Origin: Prevotella sp. | GTDB lineage: Bacteria > Bacteroidota > Bacteroidia > Bacteroidales > Bacteroidaceae | Direction of reading: 5' to 3' | DNA length: 64,000 bases | NCBI GenBank assembly: GCA_017561825.1 | Contig: JAFZBK010000036.1 | Span: 1-64,000 of the forward strand | In this document: positions 9,489 through 14,570 of the stretch, piece after piece | Layout of the letters: the number at the start of each line of letters is the position of its first letter | Position numbering within the stretch: the stretch's first letter is position 1 | The notes under the pieces: generated by a model | Databases searched by the model: none | Seen by the model: only the letters and a program-made list of their open reading frames with translations | Told to the model about the DNA's origin: nothing | Program-made: the position numbers and the translations under genes

Positions 9489-11051
9489 TCACTTTTGTAT
9501 GCATTTCTTCTCCAAAAGTACAACATTTTCCACATGGGGCGTATGCGGGAACATATCCACGGGCTGCACAGCCACCACACGATAGTCGCAGTCGAGCATC
9601 TGGAGGTCACGGGCTTGCGTAGCAGGGTTACAGCTCACATAGACGATACGTTGGGGCGAGGTGCGCAGGATGGTTTGCACCACATCGGGGTGCATGCCGG
9701 CACGAGGAGGATCGGTGATGATGATGTCGGGTCTGCCATGTTCGCTGATGAAATCATCGTTAAGCACATCCTTCATGTCACCGGCAAAGAACAAGGTGTT
9801 GTCGATGTGGTTGATCTGTGCGTTCACCTTTGCATCCTCGATGGCCTCAGGCACATATTCAATACCAATCACCTTGCGGGCCCTGCGTGCCACGAAGTTG
9901 GCGATGGTGCCAGTGCCGGTGTATAAATCATAGACAAGCGGAGCCACCCCCTTCCCCTCCAAAGGGAGGGGTGAACCGAATGCGAACTCCCTTACCACCG
10001 AGTACAGATGGTAAGCCTGATCCGTGTTTGTCTGATAGAACGATTTCGGTCCCACCTTGAATTTCAGGTCCTCCATGGTCTCGAAGATATGGTCTTCGCC
10101 TTTGAATACAAGGATGTCCTGATCGCCAATCGTGTCGTTACACTTTTGATTATCCAAATAAAGTAACGAACTGATTTGCGGGAATTTATCAGCGACAAAT
10201 TGAAGCAACGCTAAAGCTTTCTTCCCGTCTTCATTGTCCCAACGGTTCTCCCCTCTTTTGGAGGGGTTGGGGGAGGCTTCCAGATGGAACTGAATAATCA
10301 CCATCCATTCGCCCGTGTTCGAGTTACGGATGATCACATCACGGAGCAAGCCCACCTGTTCCCGCAGGTCGAAGAAACTGATGTCGTTCTGAAATGCGAA
10401 CTCATAGATTTCGTTACGTATCTGGTTATGCAGATCATCCATCAGCCAGCATTTCTCTATGGGCAGGATCTTGTCGAAGGCACCCGTGATGTGGAAGCCG
10501 ATAGAAGGGATTTTCTTAGCCCCCTCCATCCTCCCCCATAATGGGGAGGCTTCTGCTTCATCATTGCTCCCCCTCATTATGGAGGGGGCAGGGGGGAGGC
10601 TCCTTATTTCTTCTTTCGTTAGGTACCTCTTATTGGCGCAGCCGAAGTCGAGTTTGTTGCGGTATTCCCATTGCTTCACGGAGCCGAGGATGGGGAGGAA
10701 CTCAGGGAGTTCGATCTTGCCGATGCGTGTCAGCTGGTCCTTTACCTGCTGTTCCTTCATCTTCAGCTGCTCCGCATAGGGCAGGTTCTGCCATTTGCAA
10801 CCACCGCATACACCGAAGTGCTTACAGCGCGGTTCTTCGCGTACCTTACTATATTTTATAAACCTCACTACTTCGCCCTCGGCAAAGCTGTGCTTCTTCC
10901 TGCGGATCTGTACGTCAACGATGTCGCCTGGCACACAGAAGGGTACGAATACAACCAGGTCGTCCCAGTGGAACAACGATTTCCCTTCAGCGGCACATGC
11001 TTCTATCTCCACCTGTTCCAGTATCGGTAATGGCTTCTTTTTCCTGCTCAT
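9489..11051 (-). CDS. rlmD: 23S rRNA (uracil-5-)-methyltransferase, with in-frame repeat insertions
   Basis: SAM-dependent m5U methyltransferase of the RumA/RlmD/TrmA family. 520 residues in order: TRAM domain (1-70); [4Fe-4S] ligands C76, C82, C85 (CKHFGVCGGC) and a later Cys in IEKCWLM; SAM-binding VYDLYTGTGTIANF; TDPPRAG; and the catalytic Cys in VYVSCNPATQ near the C-terminus. Three places hold low-complexity insertions encoded by C/G-rich palindromes: residues about 150-177 (two facing copies), 257-268 and 357-370. Their peptides (PPAPSIMRGS, ASPLWGRMEGA, EASPNPSKRGE, SPLPLEGKGVAP) look unrelated to the fold and account for the extra length. All core motifs remain intact, so the enzyme is probably active. 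RlmD versus another m5U paralogue is not decided by sequence alone. Confidence 0.9.
   Translation of the reverse strand: MSRKKKPLPILEQVEIEACAAEGKSLFHWDDLVVFVPFCVPGDIVDVQIRRKKHSFAEGEVVRFIKYSKVREEPRCKHFGVCGGCKWQNLPYAEQLKMKEQQVKDQLTRIGKIELPEFLPILGSVKQWEYRNKLDFGCANKRYLTKEEIRSLPPAPSIMRGSNDEAEASPLWGRMEGAKKIPSIGFHITGAFDKILPIEKCWLMDDLHNQIRNEIYEFAFQNDISFFDLREQVGLLRDVIIRNSNTGEWMVIIQFHLEASPNPSKRGENRWDNEDGKKALALLQFVADKFPQISSLLYLDNQKCNDTIGDQDILVFKGEDHIFETMEDLKFKVGPKSFYQTNTDQAYHLYSVVREFAFGSPLPLEGKGVAPLVYDLYTGTGTIANFVARRARKVIGIEYVPEAIEDAKVNAQINHIDNTLFFAGDMKDVLNDDFISEHGRPDIIITDPPRAGMHPDVVQTILRTSPQRIVYVSCNPATQARDLQMLDCDYRVVAVQPVDMFPHTPHVENVVLLEKKCIQK
9941..9980. repeat. C/G-rich palindromic element inside rlmD (copy A)
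   Basis: Contains CCCCTCC (9954-9960), a short AAAG spacer and GGAGGGG (9965-9971). It is in frame and adds about 13 residues (SPLPLEGKGVAP) to RlmD. Confidence 0.7.
10247..10280. repeat. C/G-rich palindromic element inside rlmD (copy B)
   Basis: CCCCTC (10250-10255), TTTTG, GAGGGG (10261-10266), then TTGGGGGAGGC. In frame; encodes EASPNPSKRGE. Confidence 0.7.
10519..10600. repeat. Two inverted copies of the C/G-rich palindromic element inside rlmD (copies C and D)
   Basis: Copy C (10519-10550) carries CCTCCCC-ATAAT-GGGGAGG. Copy D (10566-10600) carries CTCCCCC/GGAGGGGG and is oriented opposite to C. Together they encode about 28 in-frame residues between the KEEIRS and KKIPSIGF segments. 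Confidence 0.7.
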
Positions 11052-11076
11052 TGCAATATGCTTCTTTTTTATGGTG

Positions 11077-11107
11077 CAAAGTTACTAAATATCGAATACA
11101 AAACAAA
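11077..11107 (-). promoter_or_regulatory. Promoter of rlmD
   Basis: Minus strand TTTG (11107-11104), 19-bp spacer, TAACTTTG (11084-11077). The leader to the ATG at 11051 is about 22 nt. Confidence 0.75.
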
Positions 11108-11274
11108 GAAATGCTTGCATTTCATTTGTTGCTTTGAGAATATAATCCTATATTCTTACCGCTGTTTTAAATACCGGGGTGATTAAAAGCGAATTTTCTC
11201 ATTTTCCTCAAGACCTAACATTGGAAAATCTTAATTGCTTAATAAAGAAGAACTTAGGGGCAAAATGGGTACTA

Positions 11275-11486
11275 AAAGACCTAACGTAAGAGGTAACAAA
11301 CACCTAACGTAACACCTAACGTAAGACCTAACGTTTTAGAAGCAAGAAGCAAGAGGCAAGAAGCAAGAATGAGATTCGCCAGAACAAGGTTGTCTGTTTT
11401 TCGTCTTACGACTGTTCCAAGTTGACATGTTAGGTCTCGTGTTAGGTGTTATGTTACCTCTTTGTTAGGTCTTATGTTAGGTGTTT
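11275..11486. repeat. Long imperfect inverted repeat built of CCTAAC units
   Basis: Left arm 11275-11334 and right arm 11427-11486 are each 60 bp. The reverse complement of the right arm aligns with the left arm without gaps and with about ten mismatches. Each arm consists of five units of 11-12 bp, four of the type AcACCTAACgtA and one of the type AgAGGTAAC, so the units recur about once per helical turn. The 92-bp loop carries a 7-bp tandem repeat. Function is unknown: it could be a protein-binding array, a transcribed hairpin or a remnant of a mobile palindrome. Confidence 0.8.
11338..11369 (+). repeat. 7-bp tandem repeat (AGAAGCA x4)
   Basis: Four consecutive heptamers at 11338, 11345, 11352 (AGAGGCA variant) and 11359, in the loop between the arms of the large inverted repeat. 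Confidence 0.85.
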
Positions 11487-11640
11487 AGAGCATTATAAAC
11501 GCGTGAAACACCTATATACAGGCACTTTCTTCCGTGAAACAGTTAGGTCTTGGACAAAAACACAAAATTCTTTTATTTTGTTCAGTCGAATTGCAATTTG
11601 GTTGTATGGAAAATAAGAGTTTCTTTGCATATAACTAGTT

Positions 11641-11706
11641 GTTCCCAACATGGGAATAAAGTGTTCCCAACATGGGAATAAAGTGTTCCCAACATGGGAA
11701 TAAAAC
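11641..11706. repeat. Three tandem 22-bp units, each with a 15-bp palindrome
   Basis: Copies at 11641-11662, 11663-11684 and 11685-11706; the first two are identical and the third differs in its last two bases. Each contains TTCCCAACATGGGAA (6-bp arms, 3-bp centre). The 22-bp period puts the palindromes on the same face of the helix, 60-130 bp upstream of the ppdK promoter. An operator cluster is possible; no regulator can be named. Confidence 0.85.
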
Positions 11707-11768
11707 AATGTCTCGCGGCAAGCGACTCCAATGATTGTAACTATACAATCCCAAAAAAAGTTTAAATA

Positions 11769-11800
11769 TTTGGAAGAATCAGAATTCTTTTGTATATTTG
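11769..11800 (+). promoter_or_regulatory. Promoter of ppdK
   Basis: TTTG (11769-11772), 20-bp spacer, TATATTTG (11793-11800): an exact consensus with a leader of about 45 nt. Confidence 0.8.
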
Positions 11801-11849
11801 CAGAATAAAACAAGAACACAGATTTACATATTTATAATAACAATAAAGT

Positions 11850-14570
11850 ATGAGCGAAAAAAGAGTTTATCTCTTCGGTAATGGGAAAGCCGAAGGTAAT
11901 GCACAAATGCGCGAGGCACTGGGTGGCAAGGGTGCAAACCTTGCTGAAATGAACCTCATTGGTGTACCGGTTCCTCCAGGTTTCACAATCACAACCGATT
12001 GCTGTAATGAGTACTATCAGGTGGGTCAGGCCAAGATCATGGAGATCTTGAACGATGACGTGATGAACGCTGTAAAGCACATCGAGGTACTGATGAACAG
12101 CAAGTTCGGCGATAAGGAGAACCCGCTGTTGGTATCTGTTCGTTCTGGTGCCCGTGCTTCCATGCCGGGTATGATGGACACCATCCTGAACCTCGGTCTG
12201 AACGACGAGGTGGCAGAGGGTATGGTGAAGAAGACCAACAATCCTCACTTCGTTTACGACAGCTACCGTCGTTTCGTACAGATGTACGGTGACGTGGTGC
12301 TCGAGATGAAACCCGTGAACAAGACCGATATCGATCCGTTCGAGGAGATCATCGAAGGCGTGAAGAAGGAGAGCGGTGTGGTGCTCGACAAGGACCTCTC
12401 CGTAGATGACCTGAAGAAACTGGTGAAGCTGTTCAAGGCAGCCATCAAGGAGCGTACAGGCAAGGAATTCCCAGATGATCCTATTGAGCAGCTCTGGGGC
12501 GCTATCTGCGCTGTGTTCCGTTCTTGGATGAACGAGCGCGCTATCCTCTATCGTAAGATGGAAGGTATTCCTGATGAGTGGGGTACAGCCGTATCTGTGA
12601 TGGCTATGGTATTCGGTAACATGGGCGACACCTCTGCAACGGGTGTATGCTTCAGCCGTGATGCCGCCAACGGTGAGAACCTCTTCAACGGTGAGTACTT
12701 AGTGAACGCTCAGGGTGAGGACGTGGTTGCAGGTATTCGTACCCCGCAGCAGATCACAAAGATCGGTTCTCAGCGCTGGGCAGAGCGTGCCGGTATCTCT
12801 GAGGAGGAGCGCGTAGCCAAGTATCCTTCCATGGAAGAGGCTATGCCTGAGATTTACAATGAACTGAACGGCATCCAGGACAAGCTGGAGCACCACTATC
12901 ACGACATGCAGGATATGGAGTTCACCGTTCAGGAAGGTAAGCTGTGGTTCCTCCAGACACGTAACGGTAAGCGTACAGGTGCTGCCATGGTGAAGATCGC
13001 CATCGACCTGCTCCACGAGGGCATGATTGATGAGAAGACCGCCATCCAGCGCTGCGAGCCTCAGAAGCTCGACGAGCTGTTGCACCCTGTCTTCGACAAG
13101 AAGGCACTCTCTGCTGCAAAAGTGATTGCTCAAGGTCTTCCCGCTTCTCCAGGTGCAGCCTGTGGACAGATCGTGTTCCATGCTGACGATGCCAAGGAAT
13201 GGCACGAGAATGGTCATAAGGTAGTACTCGTACGTATCGAGACCTCTCCTGAGGATCTCGCAGGTATGGCTGCTGCCGAGGGTATCCTCACCGCTCGCGG
13301 TGGTATGACCTCTCACGCTGCTGTGGTGGCACGTGGTATGGGTAAGTGCTGCGTATCTGGCGTAGGTGCACTGAACGTAAGTTACAAGGACAAGACCGTA
13401 GAGATCGACGGTATCGTTTATAAGGAGGGTGATTACATCTCCCTGAACGGTACAACCGGCCAGGTTTATGCCGGTGAGGTTCCCACAAAGGCTGCTGAGC
13501 TGAGTGGTGACTTCAAAGAACTGATGGACCTCTGCGACAAGTACACTAAGCTGCAGGTTCGTACCAATGCTGACACCCCGCATGATGCACAGGTGGCTCG
13601 CGCCTTCGGTGCTAAGGGTATCGGTCTGACACGTACCGAGCACATGTTCTTCGAGGATCAGAAGATCGTAGCGATGCGTGAGATGATCCTGGCTGACAGT
13701 GTTGCCGGACGTGAGAAGGCATTGGCTAAGCTGCTGCCTTATCAGAAGGCTGACTTCAAGGGTATCCTTGAGGCTATGGACGGTCTGCCCGTGAACATCC
13801 GTCTGCTCGATCCTCCTCTCCACGAGTTCGTACCACACGATCAGGCTGGTCAGGAGATCATGGCAAAGGAGATGGGCGTAAGTCTGGATGAGATCAAGCG
13901 TCGTGTTGACTCACTCGCTGAGAACAACCCCATGCTGGGTCACCGTGGTTGTCGTCTGGGTATCACATTCCCGGAGATTACCGCTATGCAGACAAAGGCT
14001 ATCCTTTCTGCAGCTTGCGAGCTGAAGCAGGAAGGTAAGAACCCAATGCCAGAGATCATGGTTCCGCTGATTGGTACTGTACACGAGTTGAAGCAGCAGA
14101 AGGAGATTATCCAGTATGCCGCTAAGGAAGTATTTATGGAGTATGGCATCGAAGTAGAGTTCGAGATCGGTACAATGATCGAGATCCCGCGTGCTGCTCT
14201 GACAGCTGATCTGATTGCTTCAGAGGCTCAGTACTTCTCATTCGGTACGAATGACTTGACACAGATGACCTTCGGTTACAGCCGTGATGACATCGCTTCA
14301 TTCCTGCCTGTTTACCTCGACAAGAAGATCCTGAAGGTGGATCCGTTCCAGGTACTCGACCAGGTAGGTGTTGGTAAACTGATCAAGTATGCCGTGAAGC
14401 AGGGTCGCGAGGTTCGTCCTGAGCTCCGTTGCGGTATCTGTGGTGAGCATGGTGGTGAGCCCAGCTCTGTGAAGTTCTGTGCTAAGATTGGCATGAACTA
14501 CGCAAGCTGCTCTCCGTTCCGCGTGCCAATTGCACGTCTTGCCGCCGCACAGGCTGCCGTAGAGGAGTAA
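11850..14570 (+). CDS. ppdK: Pyruvate, phosphate dikinase
   Basis: Interconverts PEP + AMP + PPi and pyruvate + ATP + Pi; cytosolic, and in anaerobes often used as a PPi-linked glycolytic or gluconeogenic step. 906 residues. N-terminal ATP-grasp domain opens with GNGKAEGNAQMREALGGKGANLAEM. The swivelling phosphohistidine domain has GGMTSHAAVVARGMGKCC with the catalytic His at residue 489. The C-terminal TIM-barrel PEP domain has GIGLTRTEHMF, LGHRGCRLGI and SFGTNDLTQMTFGYSRDD, then the catalytic Cys region LRCGICGEHGGEP. It is complete and slightly longer than the classical 874 residues. It is a single-gene unit between a strong promoter and a strong terminator; its PPi metabolism complements the nearby hppA. 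Confidence 0.97.
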   Translation: MSEKRVYLFGNGKAEGNAQMREALGGKGANLAEMNLIGVPVPPGFTITTDCCNEYYQVGQAKIMEILNDDVMNAVKHIEVLMNSKFGDKENPLLVSVRSGARASMPGMMDTILNLGLNDEVAEGMVKKTNNPHFVYDSYRRFVQMYGDVVLEMKPVNKTDIDPFEEIIEGVKKESGVVLDKDLSVDDLKKLVKLFKAAIKERTGKEFPDDPIEQLWGAICAVFRSWMNERAILYRKMEGIPDEWGTAVSVMAMVFGNMGDTSATGVCFSRDAANGENLFNGEYLVNAQGEDVVAGIRTPQQITKIGSQRWAERAGISEEERVAKYPSMEEAMPEIYNELNGIQDKLEHHYHDMQDMEFTVQEGKLWFLQTRNGKRTGAAMVKIAIDLLHEGMIDEKTAIQRCEPQKLDELLHPVFDKKALSAAKVIAQGLPASPGAACGQIVFHADDAKEWHENGHKVVLVRIETSPEDLAGMAAAEGILTARGGMTSHAAVVARGMGKCCVSGVGALNVSYKDKTVEIDGIVYKEGDYISLNGTTGQVYAGEVPTKAAELSGDFKELMDLCDKYTKLQVRTNADTPHDAQVARAFGAKGIGLTRTEHMFFEDQKIVAMREMILADSVAGREKALAKLLPYQKADFKGILEAMDGLPVNIRLLDPPLHEFVPHDQAGQEIMAKEMGVSLDEIKRRVDSLAENNPMLGHRGCRLGITFPEITAMQTKAILSAACELKQEGKNPMPEIMVPLIGTVHELKQQKEIIQYAAKEVFMEYGIEVEFEIGTMIEIPRAALTADLIASEAQYFSFGTNDLTQMTFGYSRDDIASFLPVYLDKKILKVDPFQVLDQVGVGKLIKYAVKQGREVRPELRCGICGEHGGEPSSVKFCAKIGMNYASCSPFRVPIARLAAAQAAVEE

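Follow-up and report, generated by a model that had tools for sequence, protein, structure and literature searches.

The window analysed here comprises 64,000 nucleotides (positions 1 to 64,000 of the forward strand of contig JAFZBK010000036.1, Prevotella sp., GenBank assembly GCA_017561825.1), and its segment 11191-11570 is probably a gene-less copy, similar to a miniature inverted-repeat transposable element (MITE), of a very small mobile-element family of Prevotella driven by a VapE-like helicase. The gene-bearing form of this family is one recurrent short VapE-like ATPase, of the Rep/D5 helicase type, placed between inverted arms, and the window copy is best read as a non-autonomous derivative. 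The anatomy of the element, its dispersal, its absence at this site in two relatives, the diversity of its units, their covariation with the C-terminus of the protein and the sharing of units within genomes were directly established, and it is VapE that would drive the dispersal.

The element lies as an inverted repeat between an rlmD-like gene and ppdK, which are divergently oriented (Table 1). Its arms, of 58 nt each, are 81% complementary and separated by 96 nt, close to the roughly 60 bp and 83% given in an initial annotation made from the sequence alone. The repeat is real: scored as an ungapped inverted repeat, the intergenic region reaches 25, whereas 40 dinucleotide shuffles reach 13 at most. 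Each arm carries, as had been described, five units of 11-12 bp with a CCTAAC or GGTAAC core, namely four ACCTAAC and one AGGTAAC, at steps of 12-11-12-12; given the mean step of 11.75 bp, the proposed recurrence once per turn of DNA is only approximate. The motif ACCTAAC appears 18 times in the window against 4.87 expected (none of 100 shuffles reaches 18), and ten of these occurrences fall within 11213-11548. Two flanking units had been reported as solitary, the left one at 11211. They exist, the left one at 11213, and each lies exactly 66 bp outside its own array; they are outer parts of the arms, and thus members of the element rather than strays. The terminal sequence common to the copies extends still further, to about 11191 and 11570.

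Neither the dispersed family nor the gene-bearing form had been noticed in the initial annotation, which proposed searching the genome and its relatives for such arrays; that search gave ten copies in the own genome and triple ACCTAAC arrays in 14 of 200 genomes. Using a 14-base unit-plus-spacer pattern with up to two mismatches, 40 places were found in the own genome (22 for the reversed control), 31 of which group into ten sites, the remaining nine being scattered. The window copy is one of these ten, of which six are complete, the other four being truncated at contig ends. The outer distance is 66 bp in all 16 measurable arms, and the spacing from the outer unit inward starts 66-12-11-12 in 15 of them, the exception being the right arm of copy C28 (66-12-12-11); over all own arrays, steps of 12 bp occur 47 times and steps of 11 bp 16 times. 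Two arm types, A and B, are distinguishable by their spacer, and all five complete gene-less copies consist of one A and one B arm; a comparison of four of these five gave identities of 90-94%. The own copies appear to be intergenic (short overlapping frames not being counted as genes), and their neighbouring genes look unrelated. Copies of other genomes have an outer distance of 54-67 bp and a variable odd unit, with a unit spacing mostly of 11-12 bp.

The position of the odd unit bears on the possibility that the functional unit is a hairpin RNA or a stationary DNA hairpin. In the gene-less own copies, AGGTAAC is third in six of seven A arms (C28 has none) and second in six of seven B arms (third in C28). 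Of the 19 gene-less copies that were inspected, 13 carry the AGGT-type unit in one arm or both, and not one of these 13 has it at corresponding places in the two arms; an exact hairpin stem is therefore not maintained in the gene-less arms. The gene-bearing own copy, C8, has AGGTAAC third in both arms, in register; moreover, the folding energy of the window repeat strand has a z of -6.7, and in many other family members a unit-loop-inverse-unit hairpin is found inside each arm, all of which would suit a hairpin. The single Rfam match in 10000-13000 is below its gathering score and lies inside rlmD. Thus, given the 13 out-of-register copies, the very long hairpin RNA suggested at first is not supported, despite the folding energy and the register of C8, and a hairpin of either kind is a very improbable explanation of the element.

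In C8, which measures 1.6 kb between outer units, the arms enclose one gene, coding for a short (~390 aa) VapE-like helicase. This protein matches PF05272 (E 1e-35), DUF5906 and DUF3874 (28.4 bits, the cut-off being 28.3) in Pfam, and no family in NCBIfam; PF05272 is present in all 52 aligned family members. The sole significant relative in a PDB search is 7pds, 'Similar to D. nodosus vapE' (E 4.8e-12). A related ATPase was found in 140 of 200 genomes of the genus, including the clear short form (~400 aa) at 64-91% identity. Among 295 genomes of the order, four have a match at E 1e-40 or better, one of them being the own genome and the other three 27-39% identical. Plasmid (91 records) and phage (441 records) collections gave matches below 60% in all cases, the ten listed for each being 29-37% identical. 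A viral origin was rejected, viral contigs having given just seven VapE matches, all distant (27-31% identity).

Inverted arms are recurrent around these genes. They were sought at the best 80 of 354 VapE relatives in named genomes (loci L053-L132); to judge by their titles, these genomes are mainly metagenome bins of Prevotella or Prevotellaceae from the ruminant gut, with a small number of isolates, P. communis E15-14 among them. Arms were called at an inverted-arm score above 50, and one shuffle per locus and mismatched locus pairs served as controls. Four loci too near contig ends were excluded, and 69 of the 76 testable ones exceed 50, the shuffled flanks reaching 30 at most; one of the seven low scorers, L064, does show units. 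As units recur among loci, 12 of the 200 trials with mismatched pairs also scored above 50, the highest reaching 89. Arms above 50 were also found in 17 of 19 further VapE copies (one of the 19, L233, repeats the named locus L131), and 20 loci of distant relatives (40-58% identity), one of them at a contig edge, gave 6 of 19 exceeding their shuffles.

Of the 80 named loci, 39 have a DUF6078-type gene, forming a single BLAST cluster, next to VapE, on the downstream side in 33 cases and on the upstream side in 6; the relative of this cluster in L009 (L009:2556-3005) is a DUF6078 protein (PF19555) of 149 aa. The other neighbour clusters, not annotated by family, are each present in at most 18 of the 80. 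In C8, the DUF6078 start codon closely follows the right outer unit, the VapE gene is preceded by the left arm, and the flanks of most loci of the ACCTAAC clade are similar by eye. Such an arrangement, together with the apparent location of the own copies between genes, would agree with the arrays being operators for the self-control of VapE and DUF6078, the dispersed ones being promoter parts captured and held under host selection, in the manner of a regulon. This regulatory role is nevertheless decidedly unlikely, taking into account that the complete gene-less copies are whole two-arm elements with a middle of their own rather than single operators, that the genes beside them look unrelated, and that the window copy is missing from the same site in two close relatives.

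In these relatives, G179 and G094, the window copy is absent from the orthologous intergenic region, the units being lacking in the rlmD-ppdK gap of both; over its first 151 bases, their ppdK is 99% (G179) and 97% (G094) identical to that of the window. The gap, 798 bp long in the window, has a length of 414 bp in G179 and 1283 bp in G094, and its remaining sequence is too diverged for exact junctions. The initial annotation would have doubted the array if close strains lacked it at this locus and its spacing elsewhere were random: the array is indeed lacking there, because it is an insertion, and the spacing elsewhere is not random. TTCCC palindromes proximal to ppdK are outside the window insertion, since they are present in all three genomes. 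At the own C13 site, the gene-less copy is common to G179. No upstream array was found at 29 other ppdK loci, none of them close enough for exact junctions; four have a lone ACCTAAC, and in several the upstream gene is not rlmD. Exact empty sites of the other gene-less copies were sought in G094 and G179, and no base-exact one was obtained. As a separate observation, the gap of G094 (C23, L211) is filled by other sequence, as if the site were prone to insertion.

The unit ACCTAAC belongs to the subfamily of the window, and those of other elements include ACATCTAACC, ACACCTACCT, ACTCACCC, ACCTCCCGT, ACATATAACAT, ACTCTTCACC and ACTCTACATTC. By eye, one unit is usually common to both arms and the outer units of an element, and in many subfamilies the first array unit is faced by an inverse one and the spacer holds a palindrome resembling ..GTACAAAGGG... 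Automatic clustering separates 25 unit groups, defined by an arbitrary cut of an automatic score and in some cases apparently over-split (L222/L228). At least 35 changes of unit are counted on a tree of 118 proteins, obtained by FastTree only and having long branches, in which L064 and L219 counted as 'no array' by the threshold and the duplicate L233 was omitted.

These changes go along with those of the protein. In 94 elements, including the duplicate L233/L131 and near-identical loci, array similarity was correlated with protein distance with an r of 0.66 for the C-terminal 90 residues, 0.57 for the N-terminus and 0.44 for the core, the highest of 300 values in a permutation control being 0.13 or less. 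The partial r of the C-terminus given the core is 0.57; that of the core given the C-terminus is -0.22, and the N-terminus, which adjoins the left array, contributes little beyond the C-terminus (0.16). For pairs at 64-80% overall identity the values are 0.36, 0.18 and 0.11 for C-terminus, core and N-terminus, respectively. The cooperative protein binding suggested at first thus gains indirect support as regards the presence of repeated binding sites, to which both the 11-12 bp spacing and this covariation point. Separately, L110/L115 compared with L118, and L105/L123 compared with L114, have the same downstream genes and different units; therefore, either units change in situ or a site is used more than once.

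A mechanism has been proposed from these data. The C-terminal region of VapE (DUF3874-like) would bind its own iterons at both ends of the element, where the ATPase core would assemble and unwind the DNA. Replication from the ends would then yield copies that enter new intergenic sites through a presumed integration step, and gene-less copies with the same iterons would be moved in trans. Both the iteron binding and the helicase activity of VapE are predictions. Recognition of the Rep-iteron type at both ends is the most likely way of working, because of the VapE relative 7pds and the parallel with the Rep helicases of staphylococcal pathogenicity islands (SaPIs), which, according to the available part of PMC7581432, recognise iterons through their C-terminal domain.

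The gene-less arrays of a genome can be compared with its resident VapE. In several genomes, the gene-less copies have the unit of the resident VapE element, and the short VapE elements of G094 number three and have the units ACCTAAC, ATCTAACC and TTCCCGT, arrays of each being dispersed in that genome. Triple ACCTAAC arrays are present in nine of the ten genomes with a VapE of at least 81% identity (G112 being the exception) and in five of the 190 others, among them G018 and G080 with what look like simple tandems. For ATCTAAC, such triple arrays were limited to three of the 200 genomes: G094, which has a VapE with this unit; G179, in which a VapE fragment at a contig end lies beside an ATCTAAC array; and a third with one simple tandem repeat. 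The reversed control patterns for both units matched none of the 200 genomes, in part of which the VapE units were read. The test with TCCCGT is weaker, giving 12 of 200 genomes, several by simple tandem repeats, and seven for its reversed control.

It could also be argued that the elements are moved by a transposase that is unrelated or encoded by the host, and that VapE is either cargo or a domesticated passenger with an incidental affinity for the ends. A joining enzyme is not recognised among the genes of the element and target-site duplication is inconsistent, both of which speak for this possibility. Even so, it is rather unlikely, since VapE is the sole gene within the arms of C8 (and also the gene by which gene-bearing forms were found), unit and VapE C-terminus change together, and the gene-less copies track the resident VapE in most cases tested.

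Several findings weigh against a family driven by VapE. Pfam and NCBIfam searches with the C8 gene revealed neither an integrase nor a transposase or nuclease in the element, which leaves the joining step unexplained. Target-site duplication is inconsistent in 22 gene-less copies, with a match of at least 6 bp in five of them, compared with 17.6% of cross pairs. The difference of 384 bp between the gap here and that of G179 is near the 380 bp of the element, a match that could in part be fortuitous, given that the gap differs in its remainder as well. Since the right array adjoins the C-terminal codons, linkage could be part of the covariation. As for the resident VapE, G105, G109 and G157 have ACCTAAC arrays without a VapE of at least 81% identity, and in P. 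communis E15-14 solely the two arms of the queried element were found, with no further copies. Arms were undetected at L086, L089, L097, L100, L121 and L127 of the named 76, at L227 among the further copies (L219 is low-scoring and has arms) and at 13 of the 19 distant relatives. Finally, the arms are not the sole boundary of the conserved block, which in three pairs of loci passes the arm and reaches the DUF6078 stop codon.

These boundaries were read from pairs of loci. In the near-identical pair without DUF6078, L219/L220, found in different contexts, homology ends almost at the outer units, a few bases away at most. In pairs bearing DUF6078, it stops at the DUF6078 stop codon in three of four (L054/L018, L230/L231 and L102/L107) and earlier in L222/L228. 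On the opposite side, in three pairs (L053/L054, L230/L231 and L070/L071), homology starts at an array of larger palindromes. This array is of the TTCCCAACATGGGAA type in L053/L054 and a different palindrome array in L230/L231. Tandem 22-bp repeats with the palindrome TTCCCAACATGGGAA lie at 11640-11705 of the window, belong to a dispersed intergenic family in these genomes and are also found near the left end of VapE loci, e.g., L053-L055, L060, L062, L064 and L065. The G179 locus L290, in which the left arm is duplicated and 4 kb are inserted, was judged uninformative. The armless VapE copies of L086, L089 and L097, possibly domesticated, lie by the same GTPase-like gene and are 83-89% identical (gene only) to the array-bearing L232/L234.

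Table 1. Features of the element and its neighbouring genes in the window
Feature	Position	Strand	Basis or remark
rlmD-like gene	9489-11051	-	Name from reading of the translation
Left terminal segment beyond the outer unit, GAATTTTCTCATTTTCCTCAAG, arm type B	11191-11212	+	Alike in B-type ends of other copies; mostly unrelated sequence further out
Left outer unit ACCTAAC, 66 bp from the array	11213-11219	+	Unit search, spacing
Left spacer of arm B, from outer unit to array	11220-11274	+	Alike among own-genome copies
Left iteron array: units at 11279, 11291 (AGGTAAC type), 11302, 11314, 11326	11275-11332	+	Inverted-repeat detection, spacing
Middle without recognised gene, including GAAGCAAGAAGCAAG repeats; in the place of the VapE gene of the gene-bearing copy	11333-11428	.	
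Right iteron array, arm type A: GTTAGGT at 11429, 11441, 11464, 11476; GTTACCT at 11453	11429-11486	-	
Right spacer of arm A; holds CCTGTATATAGG, by eye matching ..GTACAAAGG.. of other arms	11487-11541	-	
Right outer unit GTTAGGT, 66 bp from the array	11542-11548	-	Unit search, spacing
Right terminal segment, CTTGGACAAAAACACAAAATTC	11549-11570	-	Alike in A-type ends of other copies
ppdK	11850-14570	+	Name from reading of the translation

Apart from the element, the rlmD-like gene contains short GC-rich in-frame palindromic stretches, e.g., 9954-9971 and 10521-10604. The corresponding protein segments differ or are missing in G179 and/or G094, and resemble palindromic in-frame inserts in tolerated loops.

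On a more tentative level, these elements might constitute a class that spreads in genomes by a sequence-specific replicative helicase and terminal iterons alone, with no transposase or integrase, and in which the C-terminal domain and an address of 10-12 bp have been switched together dozens of times; as a consequence of such joint switching, several separate element-parasite pairs could inhabit one genome. If this is true, a mobile-element class would be built on a Rep-like helicase in place of a transposase, and a set of dispersed repeats in gut Prevotella would be accounted for. The 25 automatic clusters offer a natural collection in which DNA-binding domains are matched to recognition units, which helps to read how initiator specificity changes. 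The literature on VapE, DUF3874, DUF6078, Prevotella MITEs, iteron transposons and Bacteroidetes REP/RAYT, covered in part and in its open-licence portion, describes no such element. Each known family tested fails a defining feature, and the presumed driver of the elements is VapE.

The closest parallels are the replication module of SaPIs and phage-inducible chromosomal islands (PICIs), consisting of a Rep helicase and an iteron origin, and Cch2 of SCCmec, which are alike in having a VapE/D5-type helicase and short iterons. In these systems the C-terminal domain is expected to set specificity, as stated in the accessible text of PMC7581432, whereas here it is covariation that points to it. 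In contrast to SaPIs and PICIs, the iterons are located at both ends of a small element, or around no gene, and there are many dispersed copies; moreover, one gene lies between the arms of C8, with no integrase, repressor, primase or packaging gene inside. RAYT/TnpA_REP proteins with their REPINs, and BIMEs, share a single gene framed by inverted repeats and dispersed gene-less copies (as described in the portions available of PMC3116915 and PMC8266576). However, no Y1/HUH domain is among the Pfam matches of the VapE protein, and REPINs are short palindromes, whereas the present arms are inverted arrays of direct iterons of 11-12 bp. The gene-less copies are short, dispersed and provided with terminal inverted repeats, as MITEs are, but they differ from these in that no consistent target-site duplication was seen in the 22 copies and no transposase was recognised in the gene-bearing one. 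Among MITEs, BrickBuilt of Porphyromonas gingivalis is also intergenic and dispersed, with small inverted-repeat ends and repeat arrays; according to the part of PMC4596501 available, it is a single head-to-tail array of 23-nt repeats for which no cognate gene is named, whereas the Prevotella element consists of two inverted arrays facing each other and has a presumed cognate gene-bearing form.
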